Shown here piece by piece: positions 844-41,547 of a stretch of DNA of 43,166 nt. Made by a program: the position numbers and the translations under genes. Position 1 is the stretch's first letter; the number at the start of each line of letters is the position of its first letter. The stretch is taken from contig JAFGDY010000076.1 in the NCBI GenBank assembly GCA_016931895.1, positions 1 through 43,166 on the forward strand, given 5' to 3'. Source of the stretch: Anaerolineae bacterium. Its GTDB lineage: Bacteria; Chloroflexota; Anaerolineae; 4572-78; J111. The notes below the pieces were generated by a model, which had not been told where the DNA came from, made no database searches, and saw nothing but the letters and a program-made list of their open reading frames with translations.

Positions 844-3495
844 ATGAAATCTATTTTACGCCAACAAAAAGTCATCATCTTCAGCGTAGTTGTGATGCTA
901 ATGATTCTGGCGCTGGCCGTCATTATCCACCAATGGCTGCTGGTTGACCTGCCCCGGCCCAACGAACTTTACCAATACACCGCCGCCCCCTCCACCAAAA
1001 TCTACGACCGGCACGGCACGCTGCTCTACGAAATCACCGACCCTCACCAGGGCTTGCATACCCCCCTGGCCCTGGCCGAAATTCCGCCCGCCTGCGTTGA
1101 AGCCACCATCGCCACCGAAGACGCCAGCTTTTACCGCAACCCCGGCGTGGATGCCTGGGCCATCATCCGCGCCCTGTACATTAACCTCAAAGGCGGCGAG
1201 GTGTTGAGCGGCGGCAGCACCATTACCCAACAATTGGCCCGCAACCTGCTGCTCTCGCCCCAAGAACGGGTGGAGGTCAGTTTGACCCGCAAACTGCGCG
1301 AGGCTATCCTGGCCTGGCGTCTGGCCCGGGCCTACGGCAAAGATGAAATTCTCACCCTCTACCTTAACGAAACCTACTACGGCAACCTGGCTTACGGCAT
1401 TGAGGCGGCCAGCCGCACCTATTTTGGCAAACACGCCGCCGAACTTGATCTGGCCGAATGTGCTATGCTGGCCGGTCTGCCGCAAAGTCCGGCCAATTAT
1501 AATCCCCTGGAAAATCCCAGCGCGGCCAAAGCGCGGCAAAATGTGGTGCTGGATTTAATGGTCAAACACGGCAGCCTTACCGCCGCTGAAGCCGACAGCG
1601 CCCGCAGCGAAAAGTTGGGGTTTGCCGCCATTCCCTTTCCCATCAAAGCGCCTCATTTTGTGATGTTTGTGCGGGGCGAGTTGGAAAGAACCTACGGCCT
1701 GGAGGCCATCTACCGCCAGGGCTTGCAGGTTTACACCACGCTCGACCTCAATATGCAAAACACCGCGCAGCGTATCGCGCGGTACCGGTTGGCCGAACTG
1801 TCCAAGCAGGAGGATGGCCAACCCCCACGCAACGTGCGTAATGCCGCCGTGGTGGTGCTGGGCCCTACCACCGGCGAGATTTTGACCATGCTCGGCAGCC
1901 CCAACTATTTTGACCCGCGCATTGATGGGGCGGTCAACGCCACCATGGCCACGCGCCAGCCCGGCTCTTCCATCAAACCCATCACCTACGCCGCCGCCTT
2001 TGACCCCGGCTTTGCCGCTGCCTATGGCTATGAGCCGCTCACGCCGGCCTCGATGATGGTGGATGTGCGCACTGCTTTTGTGACCAAAGAAGGCCAACCC
2101 TATGTGCCTGAAAACTACGACCGCACCTGGCGCGGCCCGGTGTTGCTGCGCCAGAGTTTGGCCAGCAGCTATAACCTCATTGCCGTCAAAGTGCTGGATT
2201 ACGTGGGGCTGGACACCATGGTTGACCTGGCCCGGCAAATGGGCATTACCACTTTTGATAACAAAAATTTTGGCCTGGCCCTCACCCTGGGCGGGGGCGA
2301 AGTGCGGCTGGTGGAATTGACCTCAGCCTACGCTGCCTTTGCTAACGGCGGGCGGGGGGCGGAGCCGATAGCCATCAGCCGGATCACCGATCATGAGGGC
2401 CGCTTGATCTACGTGTCGCCCAAAAACCTCAATCCCGGCCCCCAGGTAATGGATGCCCGCACCGCCTACCTCATCACCGATATTCTGAGCGACAATTACG
2501 CCCGCCGTTCCACCTTTGGCCCTGGCAGCCCGCTCCGCCTCTCCCGCCCGGCGGCGGCCAAAACCGGCACCACCCAGGATTGGCGCGACAACTGGACCGT
2601 GGGTTACACCCCCGATTTAGTGGTGGGCGTGTGGGCCGGCAACGCCGACAACGAGCCAATGCGCCACGTGTCCGGCGTCACCGGCGCGGCCCCCATCTGG
2701 CACGACATAATGGAAGAACTGCACAAAGCCCGTCCCGCCCGTGAATTTTATAGGCCTGACGGCTTGGTTGAGGCAGCGGTCTGCGCCGATAACGGCTTAT
2801 TGCCCGTTGTACCCGTAGCATTCAAAGCCCAACCAAATCCAATTCACAATTCACAATTCACAATTCACAATTCACAATTCACAATTCACAGTTCACAATT
2901 CCCTATTCCTTGTCCCCATACCATTACCGAACTTTTTATCGAAGGCACTGAACCGCAGCGCCTTGACGATTGGCATCAAAACATTGCCCTGGACCGGCGC
3001 AACGGTTTGCGAGCCGGGCCGGGCTGCCTCCTTGAATTTGTGACCTTCCGGGCCTTCACTCTCTATCCGTCCGAAGCCCAAGCCTGGGTTAACAAACAGG
3101 GTGTATCCCAGCCGCCGGACCTCTATTCGCCGTTTTGCCCGGAACAGGAAGTAGACAAAGCAGCAAGCCAGCAAATCAGCCAGACCAGCGCTCTTGGTGT
3201 TCCTCTCTCCTCTCCCCACGCCGGTCTGGTTTTCACCAGCCCCGACCAGGGCAGCGTTTTTCGCCTGTCGCCGGATATTCCGATAGAGAAACAAAAAATC
3301 CAGGTTAGCGTCCGCCCGGCAGAAGGGGTGGAGGTAGCGGGGGTTTCGCTGTTGGTCAACGGCCAACTGCTGGCCCAAGAAGCGGAAACAATGTGGCAAA
3401 TGAAGCCGGGCGTTTATACCTTTGAGGCGGTGGGAGTTGATAAAAATGGAAATGAGATCAAGGCCAGGGAGGTGACGGTGGAAGTGATGGAATAA
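844..3495 (+). CDS. pbpC: penicillin-binding protein 1C (bifunctional glycosyltransferase/transpeptidase)
   Basis: Class A PBP that polymerises lipid II glycan strands and cross-links peptide stems outside the membrane. An N-terminal membrane anchor (about residues 8-32) is followed by a GT51 domain with EDASFY (catalytic Glu-92), GGSTITQQLARNLLL and RKLREAILAWRLA. The transpeptidase domain has SSIK (Ser-375), SYN (442-444) and KTGT (from Lys-573). The C-terminal part beyond about residue 640 is PBP1C-like and ends in a beta-sandwich-like region. Oddly, a heptanucleotide repeat inserts a IHNSQFT-type peptide (about residues 666-687) in frame between the transpeptidase domain and the C-terminal module. 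At 883 residues it is longer than the roughly 770 typical of enterobacterial PBP1C. Confidence 0.95.
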   Translation: MKSILRQQKVIIFSVVVMLMILALAVIIHQWLLVDLPRPNELYQYTAAPSTKIYDRHGTLLYEITDPHQGLHTPLALAEIPPACVEATIATEDASFYRNPGVDAWAIIRALYINLKGGEVLSGGSTITQQLARNLLLSPQERVEVSLTRKLREAILAWRLARAYGKDEILTLYLNETYYGNLAYGIEAASRTYFGKHAAELDLAECAMLAGLPQSPANYNPLENPSAAKARQNVVLDLMVKHGSLTAAEADSARSEKLGFAAIPFPIKAPHFVMFVRGELERTYGLEAIYRQGLQVYTTLDLNMQNTAQRIARYRLAELSKQEDGQPPRNVRNAAVVVLGPTTGEILTMLGSPNYFDPRIDGAVNATMATRQPGSSIKPITYAAAFDPGFAAAYGYEPLTPASMMVDVRTAFVTKEGQPYVPENYDRTWRGPVLLRQSLASSYNLIAVKVLDYVGLDTMVDLARQMGITTFDNKNFGLALTLGGGEVRLVELTSAYAAFANGGRGAEPIAISRITDHEGRLIYVSPKNLNPGPQVMDARTAYLITDILSDNYARRSTFGPGSPLRLSRPAAAKTGTTQDWRDNWTVGYTPDLVVGVWAGNADNEPMRHVSGVTGAAPIWHDIMEELHKARPAREFYRPDGLVEAAVCADNGLLPVVPVAFKAQPNPIHNSQFTIHNSQFTIHSSQFPIPCPHTITELFIEGTEPQRLDDWHQNIALDRRNGLRAGPGCLLEFVTFRAFTLYPSEAQAWVNKQGVSQPPDLYSPFCPEQEVDKAASQQISQTSALGVPLSSPHAGLVFTSPDQGSVFRLSPDIPIEKQKIQVSVRPAEGVEVAGVSLLVNGQLLAQEAETMWQMKPGVYTFEAVGVDKNGNEIKAREVTVEVME
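2841..2903 (+). repeat. in-frame heptamer tandem repeat inside pbpC
   Basis: Seven perfect copies of AATTCAC (2841-2889) are followed by two degenerate copies. Because 7 is not a multiple of 3, the three reading phases cycle and give a 7-residue peptide period (IHNSQFT) without a stop. It is one of several 7-bp-period loci in this window. Confidence 0.95.
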
Positions 3496-3519
3496 TGCGC
3501 CCAACGCTTCTGAACGTCG

Positions 3520-3548
3520 TTGCCCATTTGTCCGCTTTAGGGTAGAAT
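3520..3548 (+). promoter_or_regulatory. sigma-70-type promoter for the FMN protein-thyA-ubiD-acnX operon
   Basis: TTGCCC (3520-3525), a 17-base spacer and TAGAAT (3543-3548). It lies in the pbpC/3609 gap, about 60 bases upstream of the first gene of the operon. Confidence 0.6.
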
Positions 3549-3608
3549 GTGCCGCCACAGGGAATATTTGACCGACCGAATTTGCACTGACAAAAAAGGA
3601 AGAAAGTT

Positions 3609-4103
3609 ATGACAGAGCGCCAACCCCTGGAAGCTATAGACTCTCCCCTTTGGCAAACCGTGCCTGAACTTCCCCTTGAAGTGTTTACGGTTTTGCGCCA
3701 GGCCGATAGTGTATTTAATCCGGTGGCCATTATTGCCACCCTAGACCCGGAGGGAACGCCGCATACGGCGCCCTTTGGCAGCCTGCGGGCCGTAACCACC
3801 CGGTCGCTTCGTTTCCTCTGCTATCGCGCCCATAACACCTATGCCAATCTCTGCCGCGACGGCCGGATTGCGATAACCGTTGTGTCCCCGCCCGGTGTGG
3901 CCGTGAGTATCCGGGGACGGGCTAGGGTTATCAGAGAACAAATGGACGTGGCCCAACAATATGCCCTGGTGGCCGTTGACATTGACCAGGTAAAAAATAA
4001 CATGGTTGGGTTGGGCATCATCAAAAACGTCATCCCTGCCTCCCCGGCCAAGAACACCCAAGATTGGTTTGCCAATATCTTGGGCGAGCGGGATGGCGTA
4101 TAA
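3609..4103 (+). CDS. pyridoxamine 5'-phosphate oxidase-like FMN-binding protein
   Basis: A 164-residue protein with the split-barrel flavin-binding fold. The core strand pattern NPVAIIATLDPEGTPHTAPFG (about residues 37-57) is typical of the PNPOx-like superfamily, whose members bind FMN, F420 or haem and reduce varied substrates. The substrate cannot be told from sequence. It has a good ribosome binding site (AAAAGGAAGAAAG) and lies 12 bases upstream of thyA in the same operon, so it may serve nucleotide or isoprenoid redox chemistry. That link is only positional. Its family is clear; its reaction is not. Confidence 0.8.
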   Translation: MTERQPLEAIDSPLWQTVPELPLEVFTVLRQADSVFNPVAIIATLDPEGTPHTAPFGSLRAVTTRSLRFLCYRAHNTYANLCRDGRIAITVVSPPGVAVSIRGRARVIREQMDVAQQYALVAVDIDQVKNNMVGLGIIKNVIPASPAKNTQDWFANILGERDGV

Positions 4104-4115
4104 AAGGAGGAGGTT

Positions 4116-4910
4116 ATGCAGCAATACCTTGATTTGATGCGCCACGTCCTGGCGCGCGGGGTCAAAAAGCAGGACCGCACCGGCGTTGGCACCATCAGCG
4201 TATTTGGGTATCAAATGCGCTTTGATCTGGCCCACCGCTTTCCCCTGGTAACCACCAAACGCGTGCATTTTAAATCCATTGGCTATGAGTTGCTCTGGTT
4301 TCTCCAGGGCAGTACCAACATCAAATATCTCAATGAGCATGGGGTAAAAATTTGGAACGAGTGGGCCGACGAAAGTGGCGAATTAGGCCCTATCTATGGC
4401 TATCAATGGCGCAGTTGGCCTGCGCCTGATGGCAGAACGATTGACCAGATGCAGCAGGTGCTTGAGCAGATAAAAAACAATCCCGACTCCCGGCGGCACA
4501 TCGTATCGGCCTGGAATGTGGCTTATCTTGACCAAATGGCACTGCCGCCTTGCCACTGCTTTTTTCAATTTTACGTGGCCAACGGCCAACTATCGTGCCA
4601 GCTTTATCAGCGCAGCGCCGATATTTTCTTGGGCGTGCCGTTCAACATCGCCTCTTACGCTTTGCTCACCATGATGGTGGCCCAGGTCTGTGGCCTGTCG
4701 CCGGGTGAGTTTGTGCATACCTTGGGCGACGCCCACATTTATCTCAATCACCTGGACCAGGTCAACCTGCAACTGTCGCGCCGGCCCTATCCCCTGCCGC
4801 AACTAAAACTCAATCCGGCGGTCAAATCCCTTTTTGATTTTGAGTATGAAGATTTTTTGTTGGAAAATTATCAGCATCATCCCCCCATCAAAGCAGAGAT
4901 TGCCGTGTGA
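4116..4910 (+). CDS. thyA: thymidylate synthase
   Basis: Converts dUMP to dTMP using methylene-tetrahydrofolate. At 264 residues it matches the length of the E. coli enzyme. The active-site block [12 protein letters not shown] carries the catalytic Cys (about residue 146). It is followed by [20 protein letters not shown] and GDAHIYLNH, both signature segments of ThyA. It has a strong Shine-Dalgarno sequence (AAAGGAGGAGG). Its stop codon overlaps a possible GTG start of the downstream ubiD-family gene, which points to transcription in one message and possibly to translational coupling. Confidence 0.97.
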
Positions 4911-4936
4911 GAAATAACAGTAAATCGGTGAAAATT

Positions 4937-6253
4937 ATGGCGTTCAGAGATTATGTTGAAAAATTGGCAGCCCGGGGCGAGTTGGTCACAATCGGCAAAC
5001 CCATTTCAAAAACTTACCAAATTGCCGGGGTCCTCAAACAATTGGAACCCCAACCCGTTTTGTTTGAAAACGTCAAAGAGTCGCCCTTTAGGGTTATTGG
5101 CAATCTTTTTTGTACTAAAGCCGCTTTTGCCGATTATTTTGGCCTTCAAATTGCTGACATCATTCCCACCCTGATCGCGGCCATTGACAACCATTTGCCC
5201 GGCAAAATTGTTGACAACGCGCCTTGCCAGGAAGTGGTGCAAACAGCGCCAAACCTGAACGCGTTGCCCATCCTCAAACATTGCCATAACGACGGCGGCA
5301 ACTACATCAGTTCCGGTGTGGTAATTGCCAAACACCCCCGGTATGGCCAAAACGCCGACTTTCATCGCTGCATGCAATTCTCCCCCACCGAAATGGCCGT
5401 CCGCGTGGTCAAAAATCGCCATTTTGACAAATTTTTGCAAGATTTAGAAGCGGTGGATGTTGCTATTTGCATTGGCAATCCGCCCAATGTTTTGGCCGCT
5501 GCCGCCATCTCGGTGGACCTGGGCGTGGACGAGTTAGAAATTGCCAATGCCCTGGAACCGTTGCTGTTGACCAGGGCCAAAACGGTTGACCTGCTCATCC
5601 CGGCGGAAGCCGAATTTGTTTTGGAAGGCACGGTCTATTTGCGCCGCCGCCACCCTGAAGGCCCCCTTGTTGACCTGACCGAAACCCAGGACGTTATCCG
5701 GCAGGAGCCGGTGTTGGTGGTAAAGGCCATTACCCATCGCCGCGAGGCCATGTGGCAGGCCTTGCTGCCTGGCGGTTTGGAACATAAGTTGTTGATGGGC
5801 ATGCCGCGCGAGCCGACCATTTTTAAAGAGGTGAACCGGGTGGTGAACTGCCTGAACGTCAATGTTGATCCCGGCGGTTGTTCGTGGCTGCACGCCATTG
5901 TGCAAATTGACAAACAGGCGGAGGACGACGGGCTAAAGGCCATTCACGCCGCTTTTGCCGGGCATCGTTCCTGCAAACACGTGTTTGTGGTAGATAAAGA
6001 CATCAACATTTATGACCCGCTGGCAGTGGAGTGGGCCATGGCCACCCGTTTTCAGGGCGACCGGGACCTGGTAATCAAAAACAGGGAACCCGGCTCCAGC
6101 CTTGATCCCAGCGCCGAGCCGGGCGCCAATCTGACCACCAAACTTGGTTTTGATTTGACCAAACCCCTGGCGGCCCAGGGCAAAACATTTGATAAAGTGC
6201 CGTTCCCGGAGGTGAATGTGGGCAGTTTTGTGGAAGCGGAGATCAAGAATTAG
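4937..6253 (+). CDS. UbiD-family decarboxylase, candidate anhydromevalonate phosphate decarboxylase
   Basis: UbiD-family enzymes are (de)carboxylases that use prenylated FMN. This one has the usual N-terminus (MAFRDYVEKLAARGELV), a central VLEG (about residues 227-230) followed by PEGP (about 239-242), and roughly 439 residues. Position 4937 was chosen over the in-frame GTG at 4907 because family members start at this MxFRD segment. Four bases downstream begins aconitase X. In most archaea, AcnX dehydrates mevalonate 5-phosphate and a UbiD homologue decarboxylates the product to isopentenyl phosphate, so that role is the best inference here. The UbiX flavin prenyltransferase it would need is not in the window. 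A generic 4-hydroxybenzoate-type decarboxylase is the alternative. Confidence 0.85.
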   Translation: MAFRDYVEKLAARGELVTIGKPISKTYQIAGVLKQLEPQPVLFENVKESPFRVIGNLFCTKAAFADYFGLQIADIIPTLIAAIDNHLPGKIVDNAPCQEVVQTAPNLNALPILKHCHNDGGNYISSGVVIAKHPRYGQNADFHRCMQFSPTEMAVRVVKNRHFDKFLQDLEAVDVAICIGNPPNVLAAAAISVDLGVDELEIANALEPLLLTRAKTVDLLIPAEAEFVLEGTVYLRRRHPEGPLVDLTETQDVIRQEPVLVVKAITHRREAMWQALLPGGLEHKLLMGMPREPTIFKEVNRVVNCLNVNVDPGGCSWLHAIVQIDKQAEDDGLKAIHAAFAGHRSCKHVFVVDKDINIYDPLAVEWAMATRFQGDRDLVIKNREPGSSLDPSAEPGANLTTKLGFDLTKPLAAQGKTFDKVPFPEVNVGSFVEAEIKN

Positions 6254-20590: not shown

Positions 20591-23500
20591 TCAGAATCTT
20601 GTGGCCGGGTGGGGGTCAGTGTTTTTTTGCCATGGTCGTAAGGGAATCGCCCGCCAGACCAGGCGCATATCTTGCTGGGTCAATCCGCCAACCAGGGCCA
20701 GGGTAATCAGGTAGATCACCCCGGCAATACCGATGGTCAGGAAGAAGTTAACATCGCCGATGAACCACAGCACACTGCCCATCACTGCGGCAGCAACCGT
20801 TGGCCGCCACACAATATCAAACCAAGGCACGGTGCAGAGATTTTTGCGCACCAGCAGGTAGAAGGGGATCAACAAAGCCCACTCAGAGAAAATAGTGGTG
20901 ACGGCCGCAGCCCGGTAGCCGTACAGGGGAATAAATATGAGATTGGCCACCACGTTAAACAAAACGCCAATGACAAACGCGCCGGTCAGGTGGCGCTGTT
21001 GGTTGATGGCTATGAGCACATATTGTGTGACCTGATTGATGAAGCTGAAAGGCAAAAACCAGATCAATAGTTGCAGCACAATCATTGAGTCGGGCAAAAA
21101 TTGTTCCCCGGCCAAAAAAAGAATGAGTTCGCGGGCAATAAAGGGCGTGCCGGCGGCAATGGGCAGGGCCAGGATAAGCAGAAAACGTAGGCTCAAAATG
21201 TAAGCCCGCACCAACGATTCGCGCGAGTTGGCGGCAAAGCGGCTCATCAAGGGAAAGAGGGCCAGGGTGAAATATTGGGGGATTACGTTGATGCCGTCAA
21301 TGTATTTGTAGGCGGCGTTGTAATAGCGCACGGCTTGGTCGCCCCAGGTGGGTTGGAGAATGAACACGTCAATGCGGAAGAAGATGGTTGAGAGCAGATG
21401 ATTGATCATCAGGGGCAGGCTTTCGGCCATCATCTCTTTTTGCAGGCCGCGGTCAGGGGCCAGGAAGGGGCGGAAAATTTTTACCACCAGAATGTACCCC
21501 AGGCTGGCAAACGCCACCAGGTTGGCCGCCAACGACGCCCCGGCCAGGCCGATAATGCCCCAGCCCAACAGCAGCACCAGCGCCCCCACACTCACCCGCG
21601 CCAACGCCGTCATTGAGGCGATGCCCGCCGGATATTCGGCTTTTTCGTGGGCGTAAAAAATGGCCGTCAGGCCGTCGGAGAGGTTGCTGAGCAGCGTGCC
21701 AATAGCCAGGATGGCAATAGTGATGATCACTTCGGGCGTGATGTCGCCAAAAAGCATGTACAGGCCCAGGATGGCGGCCATGGCCGGCAGCGCGGCCAGC
21801 CACAATACCAGCCGTAAGATGGACACGTTGGCCAGATAGCGATTACGGCGGTTGTGGTCGGCGGCCACTTCGCGGGTAACCAGCGTACCCAGGCCGTAGC
21901 GGGTCACTATCTCGGTGAGGCCGATGAAGGCCACGGCAAAGGCATAGCGCCCGGCTCCTTCCGGCTGCAAAATGCGTAGCATAAGCATAGCAAAGGCAAA
22001 GTCAATCAGCCGGTTGGAGAGGGCCAGCACCATTGGCACCAGGCTGTTTTTGGCCACCCGCTTGATGGGAGAGTCGGTTTCATGCTCCCGGTACAATTTT
22101 CCCCAGGCCCAATAACCCAGCAGAAAAACCAACGTAACAAAGGCCAGGAACGAGCCATACAGACCCAATTGGAAACTGCGCGGGCTGTAGCGGAAGCGGA
22201 CCTGCCACTGGCCGGGCTGGAGATAAATCGTGCGGAAATTGCCGTTGGCCCGGTGCAGGGTCAGTTCAATCTCTTCTGTTTCCACCGGGGTTTTGGCATA
22301 GGCTCGCCAGCCGGGGAAATAGGTATCGGCCAAAACCAGCCAGCCCGGTTGGTCCAGGCGGGCGGTCAATGTGACCTGGTTGGGGGTGTATTCAATAATC
22401 TCCACCCCGGGTCTGGCCCGGGAGAGCGGCCCGGCGTCGGCGGGGGTCAGATCGCGGCCCAGGCCGTTGTTTTCGCCATCAAGGATGAGTTGTTGGTGGG
22501 GATTGAGGCTGCGCAGGGCGTATTCCTCCTGGTCCATTTCAGCCAGATTAGGCGGTTTGGGGAAATCGGCGGAAGTGACGGCGTTTTGGGCCAAAAAGGC
22601 GCGGGGCAGGGCGTCAAGATTTTCATAAACTTTAATTTCGTGATCGTAAACCAGTTGATAGATGGGGTGGTTGATGTTGACGGTGGTCAGCAAGTAACGC
22701 ACGCCCAGTAAGTCCAGCAGGGCGGAATCCAGAGCGGTATAGTCAACGGTATAGAGCGGCCCCACCCGATTGAAGAGGAGGTCGCCGTTTTTTTGGATGA
22801 GCTGCATAAAGCGGGCGTATTGGGCCGGGATGATGCTGTCGTAGCCGCGCACGTCAAACAGGTTGCTGTACATCCCCGCATTGGCCGGAAAGACCTTGTT
22901 GCCGCGCCCAGCGGGGGTGTCGAAACTGGTGAGCCGGAAAAGAGGGTCTTCCGCCTGCCGCGCTTCCAGCCATTTAACTACCTCCGGCTTAAAGTTGAGC
23001 AGGGCGGGGTCAACCGAGGGATTGAAGCCGGCTCCGGCCAGCAGTAAATCAAGGCTGATGAGGATGATGGCGAGAGGCTTCCAGGCATTGATCCTGCCCC
23101 GCCCTCCTTTTTTCAGAGAGGGAAGAAAGATGGGGCAGCAGACGATGCGCAGGACGGCTCCGCCGGCCATAGTCATCAGAAAGAACTTAAAGAAGTTGGG
23201 CCACTGGTAGCCAAAAAATTGGCGGCCGTTGGCAAAAGCGTTTTGGGCCAGGCCAGAGTGGTCAAAAACAAAAGTGGTAATCTGGATGAAAGGCGCAGGA
23301 ATGAAAAGGGCGACGAGCATGGTCACGACCCCGATCAACCCACCCCAGAAAAGTAACCAGCCAAGACGGTGAGAGAGGGTTCCCGGGAAGGACAATGGGG
23401 CAAGGATGTAGGGTGGTGGGGGTAGTTGATCCTCCCTCCTTTGGAAGTTAGAGGGAGGCTTTGCGTCAAACCGGGAATTACGGGGAGGAGTCCGCCTGGC

Positions 23501-24898
23501 GCTGACCAGCCGGTTTAAATAGGTTGCGCCCAATCCCGCCAGCACGGCCAGGCTGAAGGTGTAGGGAAAAATCCAGCGAAAGGGCGAGTGGAGTTGGTTC
23601 CAGCCGGGCAGGCCGTAAAAGAGGAGGGCGTACAGCGGCGTGCCAAAGGCGAACAGGAGCGAGAGCGCGGCCAACAGAGCAAAAATGAATACATAGCGTT
23701 TAAATGTTTGTGCGTTTGTGCGTTTGAATGTTTCATGAATAGCTTGAGCAATGGCTAAGATAGCCAGAGCTAACGGCAAAATACCCACATAAGCCCCCGC
23801 CTCAACCGAGGTTTTAGTATCCCAACTGGTACAGTGGGGGCAGAGAGGATTGATTTCTCCATTGGCGTTGAGGCCAAGGGCTTGCCAGCCCCAGCTAATT
23901 GCGTCAAAATAACCGTGATGGGCGGGGCTGCCGAAGAAGTTGGGGATAATGAAACTGGCAATGCGCCGATAGGGCAAAGCCCAACCGCGCACGTCGGCCA
24001 GAGTAACGGAGTTATCGCGGAAATTTTGGGTGACAATCTCGTACATAGGCCCCAGTTGCACCGCGCCCAGCCCCAGGCCTAATCCTCCTATTACCAGTAA
24101 CCAGCCGGCCAGGCGTAAGGCAAACCGTGGCGTATTCTGCTGCTGTCCCAAAATGAGCAGGCGGCAAAAAGCATAAAAGCCACTGACCAGGAGCGTGTAG
24201 TAAGTGATCTCAACGTGTCCGGCCAGCGTCTGCAGCCCCACGGCCAGCGCCCCGGCCACCACGTAAGGGATTGGAGAGTAACCCACCCGCCCCTTGTTCT
24301 CTTGCTTGCGGATAATCACCTCAATAAAGGACAAAATGAGGGGCAGCCAGACCGCGCTGGCGATAATCATGGTAAAAACCACGCTCACCACAAAAAAGCC
24401 GCTGAGGGAATAGGTGAGGCCCGCCAACAAAGCCCCCAATCGCCCGGCCTGCAGCGCGCGGACAAAGATGTACATAAACAGACCCGCCAGCCATAATTGG
24501 CTAACGGTAAACCAGCCGTAGGCTTTGCTTAAGGGCAAAGTGTAAAACAGCAGGCTAAAGGGATAAAGGGCCGAGTGCTGTCCATTGGCCAGAAACGGCT
24601 GGCCCGACAGAATGTAGGGATTCCACAGGGGAATTTGACGGGCCGCTATAGTCTCCCGGATAAACTTTTTCCAAACGTAGTTCTCCAAAATCAGGTCCGA
24701 GAGAAGCTGGTTTTGCGGCCGACCCACATTGAGGGCTTCTTTAGAGGAGGCCCAGGGTTCATAAGCAAAAAGATTATCAACCGGGAGGAGCGTATTTGGC
24801 CCAATGGTGACGGACCAAAAAAGCGTTAAGGGCAGGATGAGTAGAATCAGCGCGGCCAGGAAGTCGTGCCGGTTAATGGCTTTGGACAAGCGGAACAC
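20591..24898 (-). CDS. fusion of YfhO-like GT-C glycosyltransferase and MOP/Wzx-type flippase
   Basis: One uninterrupted 1435-residue reading frame. Residues about 1-940 are YfhO-like: many membrane segments, a first extracellular loop with LLPVDNLFAYEPW (Asp-41, candidate GT-C catalytic residue) and a large extracellular region (about 600-900). After a charged link (REHETDSPIKRVAKNS, about 940-955), residues up to the end form a polysaccharide flippase of the MOP superfamily with about 12-14 membrane segments (YGLGTLVTREVAA, RIDVFILQPTWGDQAVRYYNAA). AGGAG overlaps the stop of the upstream Dpm1-like gene. The first start is GTG at 24898, but TTG at 24889 is better spaced from that AGGAG. YfhO proteins are known to transfer sugars from polyprenyl phosphate carriers to extracellular acceptors such as lipoteichoic acid. 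The fusion suggests flipping and transfer in one protein. Confidence 0.9.
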   Translation of the reverse strand: MFRLSKAINRHDFLAALILLILPLTLFWSVTIGPNTLLPVDNLFAYEPWASSKEALNVGRPQNQLLSDLILENYVWKKFIRETIAARQIPLWNPYILSGQPFLANGQHSALYPFSLLFYTLPLSKAYGWFTVSQLWLAGLFMYIFVRALQAGRLGALLAGLTYSLSGFFVVSVVFTMIIASAVWLPLILSFIEVIIRKQENKGRVGYSPIPYVVAGALAVGLQTLAGHVEITYYTLLVSGFYAFCRLLILGQQQNTPRFALRLAGWLLVIGGLGLGLGAVQLGPMYEIVTQNFRDNSVTLADVRGWALPYRRIASFIIPNFFGSPAHHGYFDAISWGWQALGLNANGEINPLCPHCTSWDTKTSVEAGAYVGILPLALAILAIAQAIHETFKRTNAQTFKRYVFIFALLAALSLLFAFGTPLYALLFYGLPGWNQLHSPFRWIFPYTFSLAVLAGLGATYLNRLVSARRTPPRNSRFDAKPPSNFQRREDQLPPPPYILAPLSFPGTLSHRLGWLLFWGGLIGVVTMLVALFIPAPFIQITTFVFDHSGLAQNAFANGRQFFGYQWPNFFKFFLMTMAGGAVLRIVCCPIFLPSLKKGGRGRINAWKPLAIILISLDLLLAGAGFNPSVDPALLNFKPEVVKWLEARQAEDPLFRLTSFDTPAGRGNKVFPANAGMYSNLFDVRGYDSIIPAQYARFMQLIQKNGDLLFNRVGPLYTVDYTALDSALLDLLGVRYLLTTVNINHPIYQLVYDHEIKVYENLDALPRAFLAQNAVTSADFPKPPNLAEMDQEEYALRSLNPHQQLILDGENNGLGRDLTPADAGPLSRARPGVEIIEYTPNQVTLTARLDQPGWLVLADTYFPGWRAYAKTPVETEEIELTLHRANGNFRTIYLQPGQWQVRFRYSPRSFQLGLYGSFLAFVTLVFLLGYWAWGKLYREHETDSPIKRVAKNSLVPMVLALSNRLIDFAFAMLMLRILQPEGAGRYAFAVAFIGLTEIVTRYGLGTLVTREVAADHNRRNRYLANVSILRLVLWLAALPAMAAILGLYMLFGDITPEVIITIAILAIGTLLSNLSDGLTAIFYAHEKAEYPAGIASMTALARVSVGALVLLLGWGIIGLAGASLAANLVAFASLGYILVVKIFRPFLAPDRGLQKEMMAESLPLMINHLLSTIFFRIDVFILQPTWGDQAVRYYNAAYKYIDGINVIPQYFTLALFPLMSRFAANSRESLVRAYILSLRFLLILALPIAAGTPFIARELILFLAGEQFLPDSMIVLQLLIWFLPFSFINQVTQYVLIAINQQRHLTGAFVIGVLFNVVANLIFIPLYGYRAAAVTTIFSEWALLIPFYLLVRKNLCTVPWFDIVWRPTVAAAVMGSVLWFIGDVNFFLTIGIAGVIYLITLALVGGLTQQDMRLVWRAIPLRPWQKNTDPHPATRF
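23706..23737. repeat. octamer tandem repeat inside the YfhO-flippase gene
   Basis: Four 8-base steps (GTTTGTGC twice, then GTTTGAAT and GTTTCATG). On the coding strand it encodes HETFKRTNAQTFKR in a cytoplasmic or interhelical loop. It resembles the heptamer loci but has an 8-base period. Confidence 0.75.
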
Positions 24899-36978: not shown

Positions 36979-39900
36979 TTAGGCCGGGGCTTCAACCTGT
37001 TCCCCCAGTCTTTGGATGATCCCCACCGTGAGGAAAAAAGTAAAAGCCAGGTCCACCAGGAAGTAGGCGTTATCTACCAGGCCGTGACTCAGAAAAACAA
37101 CCATACTGCCCATCAAACCCAACACCAGGGGAGCCGCTGTTTTTTGATACAGCCGCCGGGCGTTGGCCCAGAAAGCAACTTGTAGCCATAGCAGTAAGAT
37201 AATGCCCCCCATGCCCAAACGTGTGCCAAAATCCAGCACAATATTATGGGGATGGCTCAGGTTGGGTTCTTGCCAGGCGGCGGGCAAGATGTAGCGCGTG
37301 CGATATTGATAGAGAAAGTTATCCAGGCCGACGCCCAGGGGCCAGTTATCGCGCAGCATTGCCAGGGAGGCTTGCCATAATTTTAGCCGGAAAAAACCGG
37401 TGCTGCCCTGGTTGAAGTCAAACGTGGCGCGGAAGCGTTGGGTCTGGCTGAGGGGAAGTAGGGCCAGGCCAATCACAGCCAGACAGCCGATGGTGATGAT
37501 AATCATTCGCCGCCAGTAACGTTTATGGTGGCGCAGCGCATAAAACAGAGTCATTAGCCCGATGCAGGCGGGCAGTCCCAGGAGTAAAGCGCCTTTGGAG
37601 AAGGTCAAAAAGAGGGCCACACTGACCACCATAAAGCCCGCCCCGTACAGCCAGCGCCTGATTTTTGCCGTGGCCTCGTTTGCTTGGGGCAACCCCGGCA
37701 AAAAAGCGACAGCCAACAGGACCGGCCAGGCCCGGTCTAAAAACACAGAGAGGTTGTTGGGTGAGCCGTACAGTGGCCCAATCACCCGGCGCACGCCCTC
37801 GGCGGTAATGGATTGGTTGGTAAAAAAGTAGAGGTACAGGGCCAGCAGGGCGTGCAGGGCGGCCCCGGCCACAAAGGCGTCAACCAGCCGCCAGGCCCAG
37901 CGCCAGCCCGGAGCAGTGTTAGCGCCCGATGGCCCAAAATCGCGGCCCAAGCGCACCAGAAAATAGAAAAGAACCGATTCCGCAACCAACACCCGCCACT
38001 CGCGCATGCTCACCCCAAAATTGGGCGCGGCCAGGGTGGCCAGGTAGCTGAGTATCACCAGGGCTAGGGCCGCCCAATCAAGGGATTTCAGCTTGGGGAT
38101 TTGTAATTTGTAATTTGTGATTTGGCTAAAAACCCATCGCCCGATAAAGCCGAACGTGGTCAAGGCCAGGGCCAATTCAACCGGCGAAAAACGCTGGCCG
38201 GGTAACTGTTTGGTTGCCAGGAAAAAGGAAACATTGAGGGCAATCAACACCAGCCCCAAATCAGGACGCAGCAAAAGGGCCAGGGCCAGCAGCGGCAGTA
38301 GGACCAGGGCCAGCCACCCGGGCGCAAAATAAAAGGCCAGGGCCAGGGCAAAGGTAAAAATAAGCTGGCCGCTCTCGCCGAGTTTGGCATAATACGCTAT
38401 CGCCACTGCCCCACCTTTTTTGCTAAGTTTAATCAGCGCCGGAAAAAAACTCAAGCTTAAGCCCAGGCCGCTGACCACAGCCAGAGTGCTGCTCAAGAGT
38501 AAAACTACCCATGAAGGGCGTGTTCCGGCTTCGTCGTAAACCGTCCAGCCGCTGATGGCCCACTGCCCCCAACCGCCTTCGGCTTCAATAATAGCTTCGT
38601 GAGCGCCGGAGGATGAGCCTTGCCCCAGGGTAACCTCCTCGTTGCCGCGTAAGGGGTCGTACAACACCACGTAACTACGGCCTTGCTCGTCCTGCGGGAG
38701 AGCCGGGGCCGGTTGACCGTCAACCGTAACCCACAGGTAGCCGCGATAGGGGCCGCGCTGCACGGTTAAATCCAGGCGCGTGCCCTCAAAAGGAATGGTG
38801 AGGGTGCGGGGTTGGTGGCGGGGAATATCGGCCTGGGTCAGAGCCATGCGCCAGCCGGAGCTGTAATGCCCGCTGGCATGGTTGGCCGGGTAACGGCCCG
38901 GCGTGGCGATAGTTTCTTTGACCGTGGCCGTTTGGATGGCTGCCAGAACTTCGGGCGTCTCTACCAGGGCAAACCCCTGCGCTGGATCATCGTTGGCCAG
39001 ACCGGTGGTATCCCACCGCAGCGCCAACATCGGGCCGAGCCAGGGCCAGTTGCGCCGGGCGTATTGGATGGCGGCGGCGGTGCGTTGGGCCTGCGCTGCT
39101 GGCGTATCGCTTTTCCAGGGGGAAAGCCGCCCGGTCCAGGCGGCAGGGAGGGCGTTCCAGCCAAAGGCCGTGGCCCAGATTGGGGGAGCAGGATCGTCGT
39201 GGTGGAGCATCACTTGGCGCAGTAACTCAATCCGGCTGAAGTTGAGTAGATCGGGGTCGGCCGGATCGGCCGGCTCAGAGTCAAAACCATAGGCTTGTCC
39301 GGCCACAATGTCAAACCAACGGTTAGCTTTGTTTTGGTAAAGTTGATCCAGGTAAGTCACGTCGTTCAGGTTGAGGGGGCCTTGTTCCAGGGTGGGGGCT
39401 AAAGCCGCAGTAATAATGAAGGCGGCGGGATCAACATCCTGAATATTGAGGGCAGCTTCGCGGAGCAGGTTGGCATAAGCCGCCGGGTCAACATAGGCGT
39501 TGCCCCAGTTGGCGCTGAGGTTGGGTTCGTGCCAGATTTGGTAATAGTCAATCTGCCGGCCGTAGCGCCCGGCAAAAGCGCGGGCAAAGCGGCCAAAGTG
39601 GCTGATTTCGGTGGGGGGGGTGGTTGAGGGTGTATTGGCGGGTCGCGCCCAGGCAGGGGTGGTGTGCAGCACGGCAATAAGTTTAAAAGGTTGGTCGTTT
39701 TGGGCCAGGGCAGTAAAAGCGCGATCCAGGGATGCCCAGTTGAATTCGCCGGGCGCAGGTTCTATTTTGGCCCAGGCGATGGGCTGGCGTAGCCATAAAA
39801 GCCCACCTTCGCCTAGCGAGGTTAAGCTATCGGCCAGGGTGTCGTCATGATATTGAGTCAAATCAAGGGTAAGGCCATAGCCTTTATTAGCAGCAAGAAA

Positions 39901-40023
39901 GTTGGCCGGGGGGACCGGTGAGGGGTACAGCAGCCATTGTCGGGCTAAATAGCCGGTAGCGGTCAGGCTGATGATAAAAATAAAAGTGAAAGTAAGGTTA
40001 TGCCAGGAAGTTTTTTGGGTCAT
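36979..40023 (-). CDS. fusion of glycosidase-like TIM barrel and O-antigen ligase/polymerase membrane domain
   Basis: A 1014-residue frame. One membrane segment (about residues 10-30) is followed by an extracellular TIM-barrel region like GH39/cellulase-type glycosidases (about 45-370). It has acid/base-like Glu-166 in YYQIWHEPN, but Ala-286 in IWATAFGW where family members usually have the nucleophile Glu. A beta-rich region follows (about 385-495). About twelve membrane segments then form a Wzy/WaaL-type domain with a large periplasmic loop and SHPHNIVLDFGTRLG (about 930-944), as in PF04932-like proteins. A heptamer repeat encodes QITNYKLQI in one loop. It is probably transcribed with the upstream GT2 gene. 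It may polymerise or ligate a surface glycan and bind it through the inactive-looking barrel. Confidence 0.88.
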   Translation of the reverse strand: MTQKTSWHNLTFTFIFIISLTATGYLARQWLLYPSPVPPANFLAANKGYGLTLDLTQYHDDTLADSLTSLGEGGLLWLRQPIAWAKIEPAPGEFNWASLDRAFTALAQNDQPFKLIAVLHTTPAWARPANTPSTTPPTEISHFGRFARAFAGRYGRQIDYYQIWHEPNLSANWGNAYVDPAAYANLLREAALNIQDVDPAAFIITAALAPTLEQGPLNLNDVTYLDQLYQNKANRWFDIVAGQAYGFDSEPADPADPDLLNFSRIELLRQVMLHHDDPAPPIWATAFGWNALPAAWTGRLSPWKSDTPAAQAQRTAAAIQYARRNWPWLGPMLALRWDTTGLANDDPAQGFALVETPEVLAAIQTATVKETIATPGRYPANHASGHYSSGWRMALTQADIPRHQPRTLTIPFEGTRLDLTVQRGPYRGYLWVTVDGQPAPALPQDEQGRSYVVLYDPLRGNEEVTLGQGSSSGAHEAIIEAEGGWGQWAISGWTVYDEAGTRPSWVVLLLSSTLAVVSGLGLSLSFFPALIKLSKKGGAVAIAYYAKLGESGQLIFTFALALAFYFAPGWLALVLLPLLALALLLRPDLGLVLIALNVSFFLATKQLPGQRFSPVELALALTTFGFIGRWVFSQITNYKLQIPKLKSLDWAALALVILSYLATLAAPNFGVSMREWRVLVAESVLFYFLVRLGRDFGPSGANTAPGWRWAWRLVDAFVAGAALHALLALYLYFFTNQSITAEGVRRVIGPLYGSPNNLSVFLDRAWPVLLAVAFLPGLPQANEATAKIRRWLYGAGFMVVSVALFLTFSKGALLLGLPACIGLMTLFYALRHHKRYWRRMIIITIGCLAVIGLALLPLSQTQRFRATFDFNQGSTGFFRLKLWQASLAMLRDNWPLGVGLDNFLYQYRTRYILPAAWQEPNLSHPHNIVLDFGTRLGMGGIILLLWLQVAFWANARRLYQKTAAPLVLGLMGSMVVFLSHGLVDNAYFLVDLAFTFFLTVGIIQRLGEQVEAPA
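38099..38126. repeat. heptamer tandem repeat inside the O-antigen ligase-like gene
   Basis: The steps are ATTTGTA, ATTTGTA, ATTTGTG and ATTTGGC. On the coding strand it is translated in frame as part of an inter-helix loop. Confidence 0.8.
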
Positions 40024-40056: not shown

Positions 40057-41547
40057 TTACTGCGTACTGCCGCTTGGCTGCGGGCGACCAATAAAGTGAG
40101 TTTTACCCCCCGACTGCCACAAGGCCAGGCCCGCGGTGTAGAGGTAGCCAATAGCGTATACGCCAAGAAAGATGGTCAACCCCGGCGCGCGGGTGAGGGC
40201 CACAGCGGCTTCTACCAGGCAATAGAGCGCAATCAAAAGTTCACCCCAGGTGGTCCAATTGAGGGGGAGGTGATAGGTGGTGTGGCGAGCGGGGCTAATT
40301 TGACGCCCTTCGGCCCGGAATTTAGGCGTGCGTAAAAAAACGGTAGCGTTGCGGCCGGTGAGAGCCTCAAAAACAGCCCAGCTATTGTTCAGGGCCACGC
40401 CTGCGCCCAGCAGCACCAGGAAGGGAAAATAAGCAAAACGACGTTTCCAATCTGGGTAGAGGGCCCACTGGGAGAGGCCAAATAAAATGGGGGGGGCAAA
40501 TCCGGCCAGGCCCAACGCACCCAAAGGCAGCGCGCCCAGGCCGTTGGTCAAGATGACGGGCAGGCCAATCAGGATCATGGCCAGCATCAATGGGTGGAGC
40601 AGATAGCCGCCCATGTGTAACACGGCCTGCGTTTTGCGCCACACCGAATTGCGCGAACGCAGCAGGCGTGGCCCCAGTTTCAGCAGTGATTGCACCGAGC
40701 CTTTGGCCCAGCGAAATTGCTGCCGTTTGTAGGCGGTGAGGGTGGGCGGAATCTCGGCGGGGCAAACAACGTGGGGCAGAAATAGTAATTTCCAACCGGC
40801 CAACTGAGCCCGGTAAGACAGGTCAAAATCTTCACAGATGGTATCCCACTGCCAGCCGCCGGCAGCGGCAATGGCGGCCCGGCGCCAAACGCCGCCGGAG
40901 CCGTTGAAGTTCAAAAATAGGCCGCTCCGGCTCCGCGCGTTTTGTTCAATAACAAAATGCCCATCCAGGGCCAGGGCCTGGGCGCGGGTAAACGGTCCGG
41001 CTTCGGCGTTGAGGTGGCCCCAGCGGGTTTGGACCATCCCCACCTGGGCATTGGGGGCAAAGTGAGGCATCACCTGCCGCAAAAAGTCGGGTTGAGGTTT
41101 AAAGTCGGCATCAAAGATGGCAATGAATTCTTCATCGGTTTGGGCCAGGCCGTAAGCTATGGCCCCGGCCTTAAAGCCAACGCGGTCTGGCCGACGCACG
41201 TAGGTGATGTTGACCCCTCGCGCGGCGTGATAAGCGATGCGCGCCCGGGCCAGAGTTTGAGTCTCATCGGTAGAGTCGTCTAACACTTGGATGGATAATC
41301 GGTCGGCGGGATAATCCAGGGCGGCGGCGGCGTCAATGAGCCGCTCTACCACAAAACGCTCGTTAAAGATGGGGAGTTGCACCAACACCCGGGGCCATTC
41401 CCCCGGCTGCGGCGAGGGGGGAGGGTTGACCTGTTTGCGTCGTTGCCACAGAAACAGGCCCGACATAATCAAGGCATTAAAGCCGTACATGGCGATGCTG
41501 GTGAGGATAATAAAATAAAGCGCAACAAGAACTGTTGAAATTATCAT
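40057..41547 (-). CDS. processive-type GT2 glycosyltransferase (cellulose/glucomannan synthase-like)
   Basis: A 496-residue membrane glycosyltransferase. An N-terminal membrane segment is followed by the GT-A domain: QLPIFNER, VLDDSTDET (about residues 89-97), FDADFKPQPDF (DxD), EDFDLSYR (base) and QQFRWAKG (the Q-x-x-R-W motif, about 277-281). Four or so C-terminal membrane helices follow. This set matches CslA/BcsA-type synthases that extrude a beta-linked polysaccharide. It lies 33 bases upstream of the ligase fusion, so both probably work on the same exopolysaccharide. The sugar donor is not known. Confidence 0.92.
   Translation of the reverse strand: MIISTVLVALYFIILTSIAMYGFNALIMSGLFLWQRRKQVNPPPSPQPGEWPRVLVQLPIFNERFVVERLIDAAAALDYPADRLSIQVLDDSTDETQTLARARIAYHAARGVNITYVRRPDRVGFKAGAIAYGLAQTDEEFIAIFDADFKPQPDFLRQVMPHFAPNAQVGMVQTRWGHLNAEAGPFTRAQALALDGHFVIEQNARSRSGLFLNFNGSGGVWRRAAIAAAGGWQWDTICEDFDLSYRAQLAGWKLLFLPHVVCPAEIPPTLTAYKRQQFRWAKGSVQSLLKLGPRLLRSRNSVWRKTQAVLHMGGYLLHPLMLAMILIGLPVILTNGLGALPLGALGLAGFAPPILFGLSQWALYPDWKRRFAYFPFLVLLGAGVALNNSWAVFEALTGRNATVFLRTPKFRAEGRQISPARHTTYHLPLNWTTWGELLIALYCLVEAAVALTRAPGLTIFLGVYAIGYLYTAGLALWQSGGKTHFIGRPQPSGSTQ

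Follow-up and report, generated by a model that had tools for sequence, protein, structure and literature searches.

The window analysed here is the whole 43,166-nucleotide stretch of contig JAFGDY010000076.1 from an Anaerolineae bacterium (assembly GCA_016931895.1), whose genome is fragmented into 320 contigs. On its minus strand lies a gene for a protein that joins a glycosidase-like barrel to a Wzy/WaaL-like membrane domain. An earlier sequence-only reading of this DNA had described an open reading frame (ORF) at 36979-40023 with an intact WHEPN segment containing Glu-166 and an ATAFGW segment with Ala-286 (codon GCC) where a nucleophile Glu is expected, and we found the frame, both segments and the codon as described. 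The features of the gene and its immediate neighbour are listed below in the order of the protein.

36979..40023, minus strand: whole gene, 1014 amino acids (aa), comprising an anchor, PslG-like barrel, jelly roll and Wzy/WaaL-like membrane domain; ATG start and unbroken ORF
39931..39999, minus strand: N-terminal membrane anchor, about residues 9-31 (direct reading, and a modelled helix at 3-32)
38914..39891, minus strand: (beta/alpha)8 barrel with a PslG-like GH39 fold, about residues 45-370 (profile and structure match to PslG)
39862..39864, minus strand: D54, Asp directly after beta1, 94% acidic in the order of the source organism (Phe in 41 of 55 comparison rows)
39526..39528, minus strand: E166, codon GAA in WHEPN (motif starts at residue 164), aligned with the PslG acid/base E165
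39166..39168, minus strand: A286, codon GCC in ATAFGW (motif starts at residue 284), aligned with the PslG nucleophile E276
39010..39012, minus strand: D338, order-specific Asp directly after beta8, at the barrel rim (Arg in 47 of 55 comparison rows)
38530..38913, minus strand: beta-sandwich (jelly roll), about residues 371-498, resembling carbohydrate-binding modules (CBMs) and the CE2 N-terminal domain (separate model and VIA)
38560..38583, minus strand: AEGGWGQW motif of the jelly roll, residues 481-488, with class-typical conservation
36991..38520, minus strand: Wzy/WaaL-like polytopic domain, about residues 502-1011 (Pfam Wzy_C and WaaL profile match)
37243..37254, minus strand: HPHN, residues 924-927, aligned with EHAHN of WaaL 7tpg
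40057..41547, minus strand: family 2 glycosyltransferase gene, ending 33 bp upstream of the fused gene

The best match of the barrel in the Protein Data Bank (PDB) was PslG of Pseudomonas aeruginosa, an endo-beta-glucosidase from the Psl exopolysaccharide cluster and a member of glycoside hydrolase family 39 (GH39), whether the search was made with a single sequence (phmmer, E 1.6e-10), with a profile (E 4.2e-28) or with Foldseek (rank 1). VIA gave Z 30.2 to 9g17 and Z 30.0 to 4zn2 (308 residues, root-mean-square deviation (rmsd) 2.6), and other GH39 structures scored lower (Z about 25-26). The (beta/alpha)8 barrel is related to GH39 by both sequence and structure; of the two families named in the sequence-only reading GH39 stands, while "GH5-like" narrows to PslG-type GH39. 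In the phmmer alignment E166 pairs with the acid/base E165 of PslG and A286 with its nucleophile E276 (PslG numbers were counted by hand, as chain positions 139 and 250 plus an offset of 26). A286 thus falls on the exact catalytic column, and the invariant residues G288-W289 fix the alignment. An AlphaFold model of the full-length protein (mean predicted local distance difference test (pLDDT) score 80.6, 17 rows as input) also puts both residues in the usual catalytic places of the fold, E166 directly after beta4 (160-163) and A286 inside beta7 (282-287), and the assignment of Ala-286 to the nucleophile position is borne out by alignment and predicted structure alike.

The barrel keeps the acid/base Glu after beta4, has Ala in place of the nucleophile Glu at the end of beta7 and has H165 in place of the Asn that directly precedes the acid/base (N164 in PslG). 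In PslG, E276 was trapped in a covalent bond with an inhibitor, the postulated acid/base E165 lies nearby, and N164 contacts the -1 sugar (PMC11912335). An E165/E276 double mutant cannot restore Psl production (PMC6813494; see also PMC9075953), and reports conflict on PslG activity, some finding it necessary for Psl production and others not (PMC6813494). Judged by its residues, the barrel has lost what a retaining GH39 enzyme needs. We found no true nucleophile Glu, as such, at another strand end, but D338 and D54 have been gained in the order.

Folded alone, the jelly roll was predicted with a pLDDT of 92.9 and has a galactose-binding-like fold. Its closest relative by VIA was a CE2 N-terminal domain (2waa; Z 13.7, 109 residues, rmsd 2.1), and CBM35, CBM36 and CBM6 gave Z about 9-11. 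The fold search alone gave these relatives: the jelly-roll sequence profile retrieved nothing meaningful from the PDB, and Pfam CE2_N (PF17996) scored 17.8 bits against a curated cut-off of 27.9. Within the AEGGWGQW motif, residues 481-485 and 487-488 are invariant across 17 rows.

The claim that the barrel is followed by a Wzy/WaaL-like domain is upheld by Pfam Wzy_C (PF04932), which matched residues 796-945 with 56.0 bits against a cut-off of 31.7. A profile also matched WaaL of Cupriavidus metallidurans (7tpg, E 2.4e-6), which a single-sequence phmmer search with the C-terminal half did not find. R879, H924 and H926, conserved His and Arg residues of catalytic type, were present in 115 of 115 rows. 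The protein resembles the Wzy_C/O-antigen ligase family (WaaL 7tpg; PglS) in its polytopic build, its conserved Arg and the His-x-His-Asn loop aligned to WaaL, but it adds a glycosidase-like and jelly-roll part of ~470 residues, predicted to be extracellular. In PglS, changing the proposed catalytic His, placed by WaaL alignment, to Ala inactivates the enzyme (PMC12800693). By homology the membrane domain is probably a polysaccharide polymerase or ligase. A basic segment, KLSKKGG, follows the first helix of this polytopic domain and suggests an orientation with the barrel outside the cell.

The source genome contained 12 matches, namely the window gene, 10 other barrel proteins and one match to the Wzy part only, and all 10 of the other barrel proteins have Glu at both catalytic columns. 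The congeneric ortholog (72% identical) likewise has Ala at 286. Within the order, where 20 of 25 genomes had a match below 1e-60, column 286 held Ala in 17 of 20 rows, Gly in 2, Ser in 1 and Glu in none. A scan of genome contigs returned 16 loci, all from Chloroflexota; it reaches close relatives only, and the fusion may thus exist in other phyla. As a separate observation, one locus of the source genome (L014:4315-10554, minus strand) carries two barrel ORFs (990 and 1023 aa) with WNEQN and TEFGW beside a third barrel gene, and these two showed no Wzy-part match when aligned to the window protein.

Across the class Anaerolineae, 314 of 396 genomes had a match below 1e-50. We assembled 119 fused rows, hand-picked from the best-scoring of these genomes' matches and nearly all from Anaerolineae (the class of L067 was taken without check); they are the ORFs of at least 600 aa from 140 distinct ORFs, minus nine loci of the source genome or genus with unfused barrels, with L044 and L108 excluded as short and the contig-end fragments L065 and L071 counted in. 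Column 286 held twelve residues in this set (Ala 38, Glu 27, His 22, Ser 9, Gln 5, Asn 5, Asp 4, Gly 3, Thr 3, Leu 1, Arg 1 and Phe 1), and column 166 held Glu in 97 rows, Asn in 11, Gln in 10 and Ala in 1. Both Glu residues were retained in 20 of the 119 rows, and the complete set of N165, E166 and E286 in none, with Asp or His at column 165 in 115. The scaffold around these positions is conserved: W164 is retained in 117 rows, and P167, N168, W173, G288 and W289 are invariant in all 119. Because all 20 rows with both Glu residues have Asp at 165 and none has Trp at 335, their activity also seems doubtful. The Ala of the window protein is thus no isolated mutation, and of the origins proposed for it, direct descent holds across the order; in place of a single substitution, a repeated dismantling of the active site is seen across the class. 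His stands in the nucleophile column of 22 rows (e.g. L159, L165, L170), and 10 of these rows carry Glu at 335, a position held by Trp in most of the comparison rows.

Of 400 genomes searched within the phylum, 77 had a match below 1e-60, with some of these matches in other classes and some unfused. The comparison set comprises 55 rows from 40 further loci, 21 fused (all from other classes) and 34 unfused; 54 come from other classes, and the remaining one (L198, genome G090) is an unfused gene of the window's class. All are matches below 1e-60 to the window protein, which biases the set towards its relatives. The N165, E166 and E286 set was intact in 50 of the 55 (18 of 21 fused, 32 of 34 unfused). 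The jelly-roll residues G483-G484-W485 with W488 occurred in 62 of the 119 class rows, and G484-W485 in none of the comparison rows.

The arrangement of the genes also varies. A separate Wzy gene directly adjoins an intact or near-intact barrel gene at L183, L185-L189, L195, L197 (which has Asp at 165) and L219. Such unfused PslG-like genes of other Chloroflexota (e.g. L183, L185-L189, L219) resemble the window gene in having the same modules as neighbours, with barrel and jelly roll, but differ in their intact catalytic Asn-Glu-Glu and the lack of a fusion. In 15 of the 21 fused comparison loci the fused gene is immediately preceded by an unfused barrel gene, and all 80 class loci L100-L179 showed a single barrel ORF within the stretch fetched. 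Two tandem pairs of unfused and fused barrel genes diverge in opposite ways: at L180 (1515-6207) the catalytic set is lost in the fused copy and retained in its unfused neighbour, while at L206 (880-5299) it is retained in the fused copy and lost in the unfused one.

To count substitutions we used a tree of 114 rows (5 more were dropped) built with the catalytic segments around 166 and 286 left out. Column 286 changed at least 35 times, its Glu/not-Glu state at least 12 times and column 166 at least 11 times; the state of having both Glu residues changed at least 11 times, 6 of them forced by starred branches. H924, H926 and R879 of the Wzy domain took 0 steps on the same tree. By number of steps column 286 lies at the 62nd percentile of barrel columns (35 versus a barrel median of 28), and its entropy rank within the barrel is at the 73rd percentile in the class versus the 11th in the comparison rows. 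Ten columns that hold one residue in at least 80% of comparison rows have switched their main residue in the class (58, 98, 118, 156, 165, 172, 286, 335, 338 and 428), among them 118 (Arg to Val), 165 (Asn to Asp or His), 172 (Glu to His and others), 335 (Trp to Ala and others) and 338 (Arg to Gln or Asp). In the model, six of the ten (118, 165, 172, 286, 335 and 338) lie in, or within about 10 residues after, the C-terminal ends of beta3, 4, 7 and 8, which form the active-site face.

We also compared the ratio of nonsynonymous to synonymous substitution (dN/dS) between close pairs lacking Glu286. Wherever dS exceeded 0.1 the barrel ratios were 0.03-0.17, broadly like those of the Wzy part; they come from an experimental Biopython routine, with dS near or above 1 in several pairs, one pair too close to be informative (L170/L171, dS 0.008) and one pair giving no value. 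For barrel versus Wzy part the ratios were 0.086 versus 0.184 (L038/L039, Ala), 0.134 versus 0.188 (L053/L054, Ala), 0.153 versus 0.170 (L160/L162, Asp) and 0.124 versus 0.133 (L172/L176, His). By these estimates the barrel is under purifying selection although its catalytic set is gone, which argues for a role other than hydrolysis.

We propose, with moderate confidence, that the barrel is a decommissioned PslG-type hydrolase kept as a polymer-handling domain of a Wzy/WaaL polymerase or ligase. The extracellular part of the protein would descend from a PslG-type GH39 endoglycosidase, and the ancestral arrangement would persist in other Chloroflexota, where an intact glycosidase gene stands beside a separate Wzy gene or is fused to it. 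In Anaerolineae the fusion would have been retained while the glycosidase active site was taken apart stepwise. We infer an order of losses in which the Asn preceding the acid/base gave way to Asp or His, the Arg at beta3 and the Trp after beta8 disappeared, and the nucleophile, sometimes with the acid/base, was lost several times. The barrel and the CBM-like jelly roll would most likely act without cutting, by capturing the growing or incoming glycan on the outer side of the membrane and keeping it in register with the active site of the Wzy domain, an effect on the polymer that could serve processivity, acceptor choice or length control.

The sensor or length-control module suggested in the sequence-only reading is plausible by analogy, as it fits the fusion and the known roles of PslG and WceF. 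PslG shares with the window protein the barrel fold and sequence, the position of the acid/base and a tie to exopolysaccharide synthesis at the inner membrane; it differs in being a separate protein that has E276 and N164 and cuts Psl, whereas the window protein has Ala and His at these positions and is fused to a Wzy/WaaL-like domain. WceF provides a precedent for an influence on chain length by a hydrolase of a Wzy-type pathway (PMC7949094). Like other exopolysaccharide-trimming hydrolases it handles glycan chains in a Wzy-dependent pathway, but with a different fold and an active catalytic site. A bolder form of the proposal, which we regard as tentative and rather doubtful, would make the decommissioned endoglycosidase a built-in chain ruler across the whole class, its former cutting groove serving solely to hold the polymer, with 165, 166, 286, 335 and 338 as specificity positions retuned in each lineage to its new polymer and with length control by trimming replaced by control of length or register through non-cutting binding in cis.

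Some observations weigh against a decommissioned hydrolase. E166 is retained in 97 of the 119 rows and in 19 of 20 order rows, more than a dead site needs; D54 and D338 have appeared in the order, close to the rim of the pocket; and the 20 class rows with both Glu residues may still be cutting. The outgroup rows do not group together on a single side of the tree, and loss was therefore read from PslG, the paralogues and the outside relatives rather than from a root. A rebuilt catalytic centre is the main mechanistic rival: in the order, D338 or D54 together with E166 as acid/base would form a new catalytic or cation-binding centre that still cuts or transfers sugars, perhaps by another mechanism. 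Both Asp residues stand, in the model, directly after beta8 and beta1; D338 is acidic in 20 of 20 order rows and replaces an Arg of the comparison rows, D54 replaces a Phe, and E166 is nearly always kept beside them. The Glu at 335 in 15 rows of other lineages with His, Gln or Asn at 286 is a further hint that carboxylates may have moved. We nevertheless consider a rebuilt centre quite improbable. An order member (first copy at L055) keeps D338 despite Gln166 and Gly286, and D338 arose about once (sign test for a link to A286, p 1). When acids at 54, 226, 335 and 338 were set against loss of Glu286, few independent pairs differed. PslG itself has Asp at the D338 column (by hand count on the profile alignment), and this Asp is absent from the ligand contacts listed in the available excerpt of the PslG report.

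Engineered glycosynthases are Ala, Gly or Ser nucleophile mutants of glycosidases that use alpha-glycosyl fluoride donors. A natural counterpart, in which a small residue at 286 and an intact general base extend chains from an alpha-linked polyprenyl-diphosphate donor, would suit the 50 of 119 rows in which column 286 holds Ala, Ser, Gly or Thr and E166 is present, as well as a fusion partner whose known relatives use lipid-diphosphate donors. It is very improbable in our judgement, as the pocket residues N165, R118 and W335 are lost too, the base is absent in sister lineages (Gln, Asn or Ala at 166 in 22 of 119 rows) and the Wzy domain has a conserved His/Arg site of its own. The barrel might instead be a structural relic that makes no glycan contact and serves only in folding or stabilising the polymerase or in contacts with protein, in keeping with a nucleophile column more variable than the typical barrel column. 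That seems unlikely to us given a barrel dN/dS about as low as that of the polymerase part, the many invariant Trp and pocket-side residues, the conserved Trp-rich motif gained by the CBM-like jelly roll and the retention of a protein match in most genomes of the class. Fragmentation of the source genome raises the thought of a misassembled, frameshifted or misaligned normal GH39 enzyme, but the ORF runs through without a break, the Ala recurs in relatives whose records were deposited separately and G288-W289 anchor the alignment, and we find this explanation hardly credible.

A literature search found no description of such a fusion, or of a pseudo-glycosidase polymerase, in the portions of the papers that were available. 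The fusion speaks to how chain length is set in Wzy-type systems and to why exopolysaccharide clusters carry hydrolases. In this protein the glycosidase and the polymerase form one molecule. Its relatives give every stage, from separate and intact through fused and intact to fused with one Glu lost and fused with both lost, a natural series that lets cutting and holding roles be told apart experimentally. Annotation of such Anaerolineae proteins as GH39/GH42-type hydrolases is probably wrong in most cases.

The family 2 glycosyltransferase gene upstream of the fused gene likely belongs to the same transcript, judging by its strand and the 33 bp spacing. Its counterpart in the congeneric genome is 84% identical, and only the congener has this neighbour in common with the window. 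Of 113 class loci, 42 have an epimerase-type cluster downstream of the fused gene, 25 a PD40-type protein on its upstream side and 16 a second Wzy gene downstream; none of these recurrent neighbours flanks the window gene, and synteny across the 113 loci did not give the identity of the polymer. The cluster of the 25 loci, which directly precedes the fused gene, is exemplified by L142:3389-6085 (minus strand), where the PD40 beta-propeller protein carries a NAGPA (phosphodiester glycosidase) domain. At L055 two fused barrel-Wzy genes stand in tandem, next to a gene (3288-5933, minus strand) for a BsuBI/PstI-type restriction endonuclease joined to an N6 methylase. The window itself encodes a second fused polysaccharide-export protein, of 1435 aa (20591-24898, minus strand), in which a YfhO-type membrane domain and a Wzx-like flippase domain (Polysacc_synt) are united.

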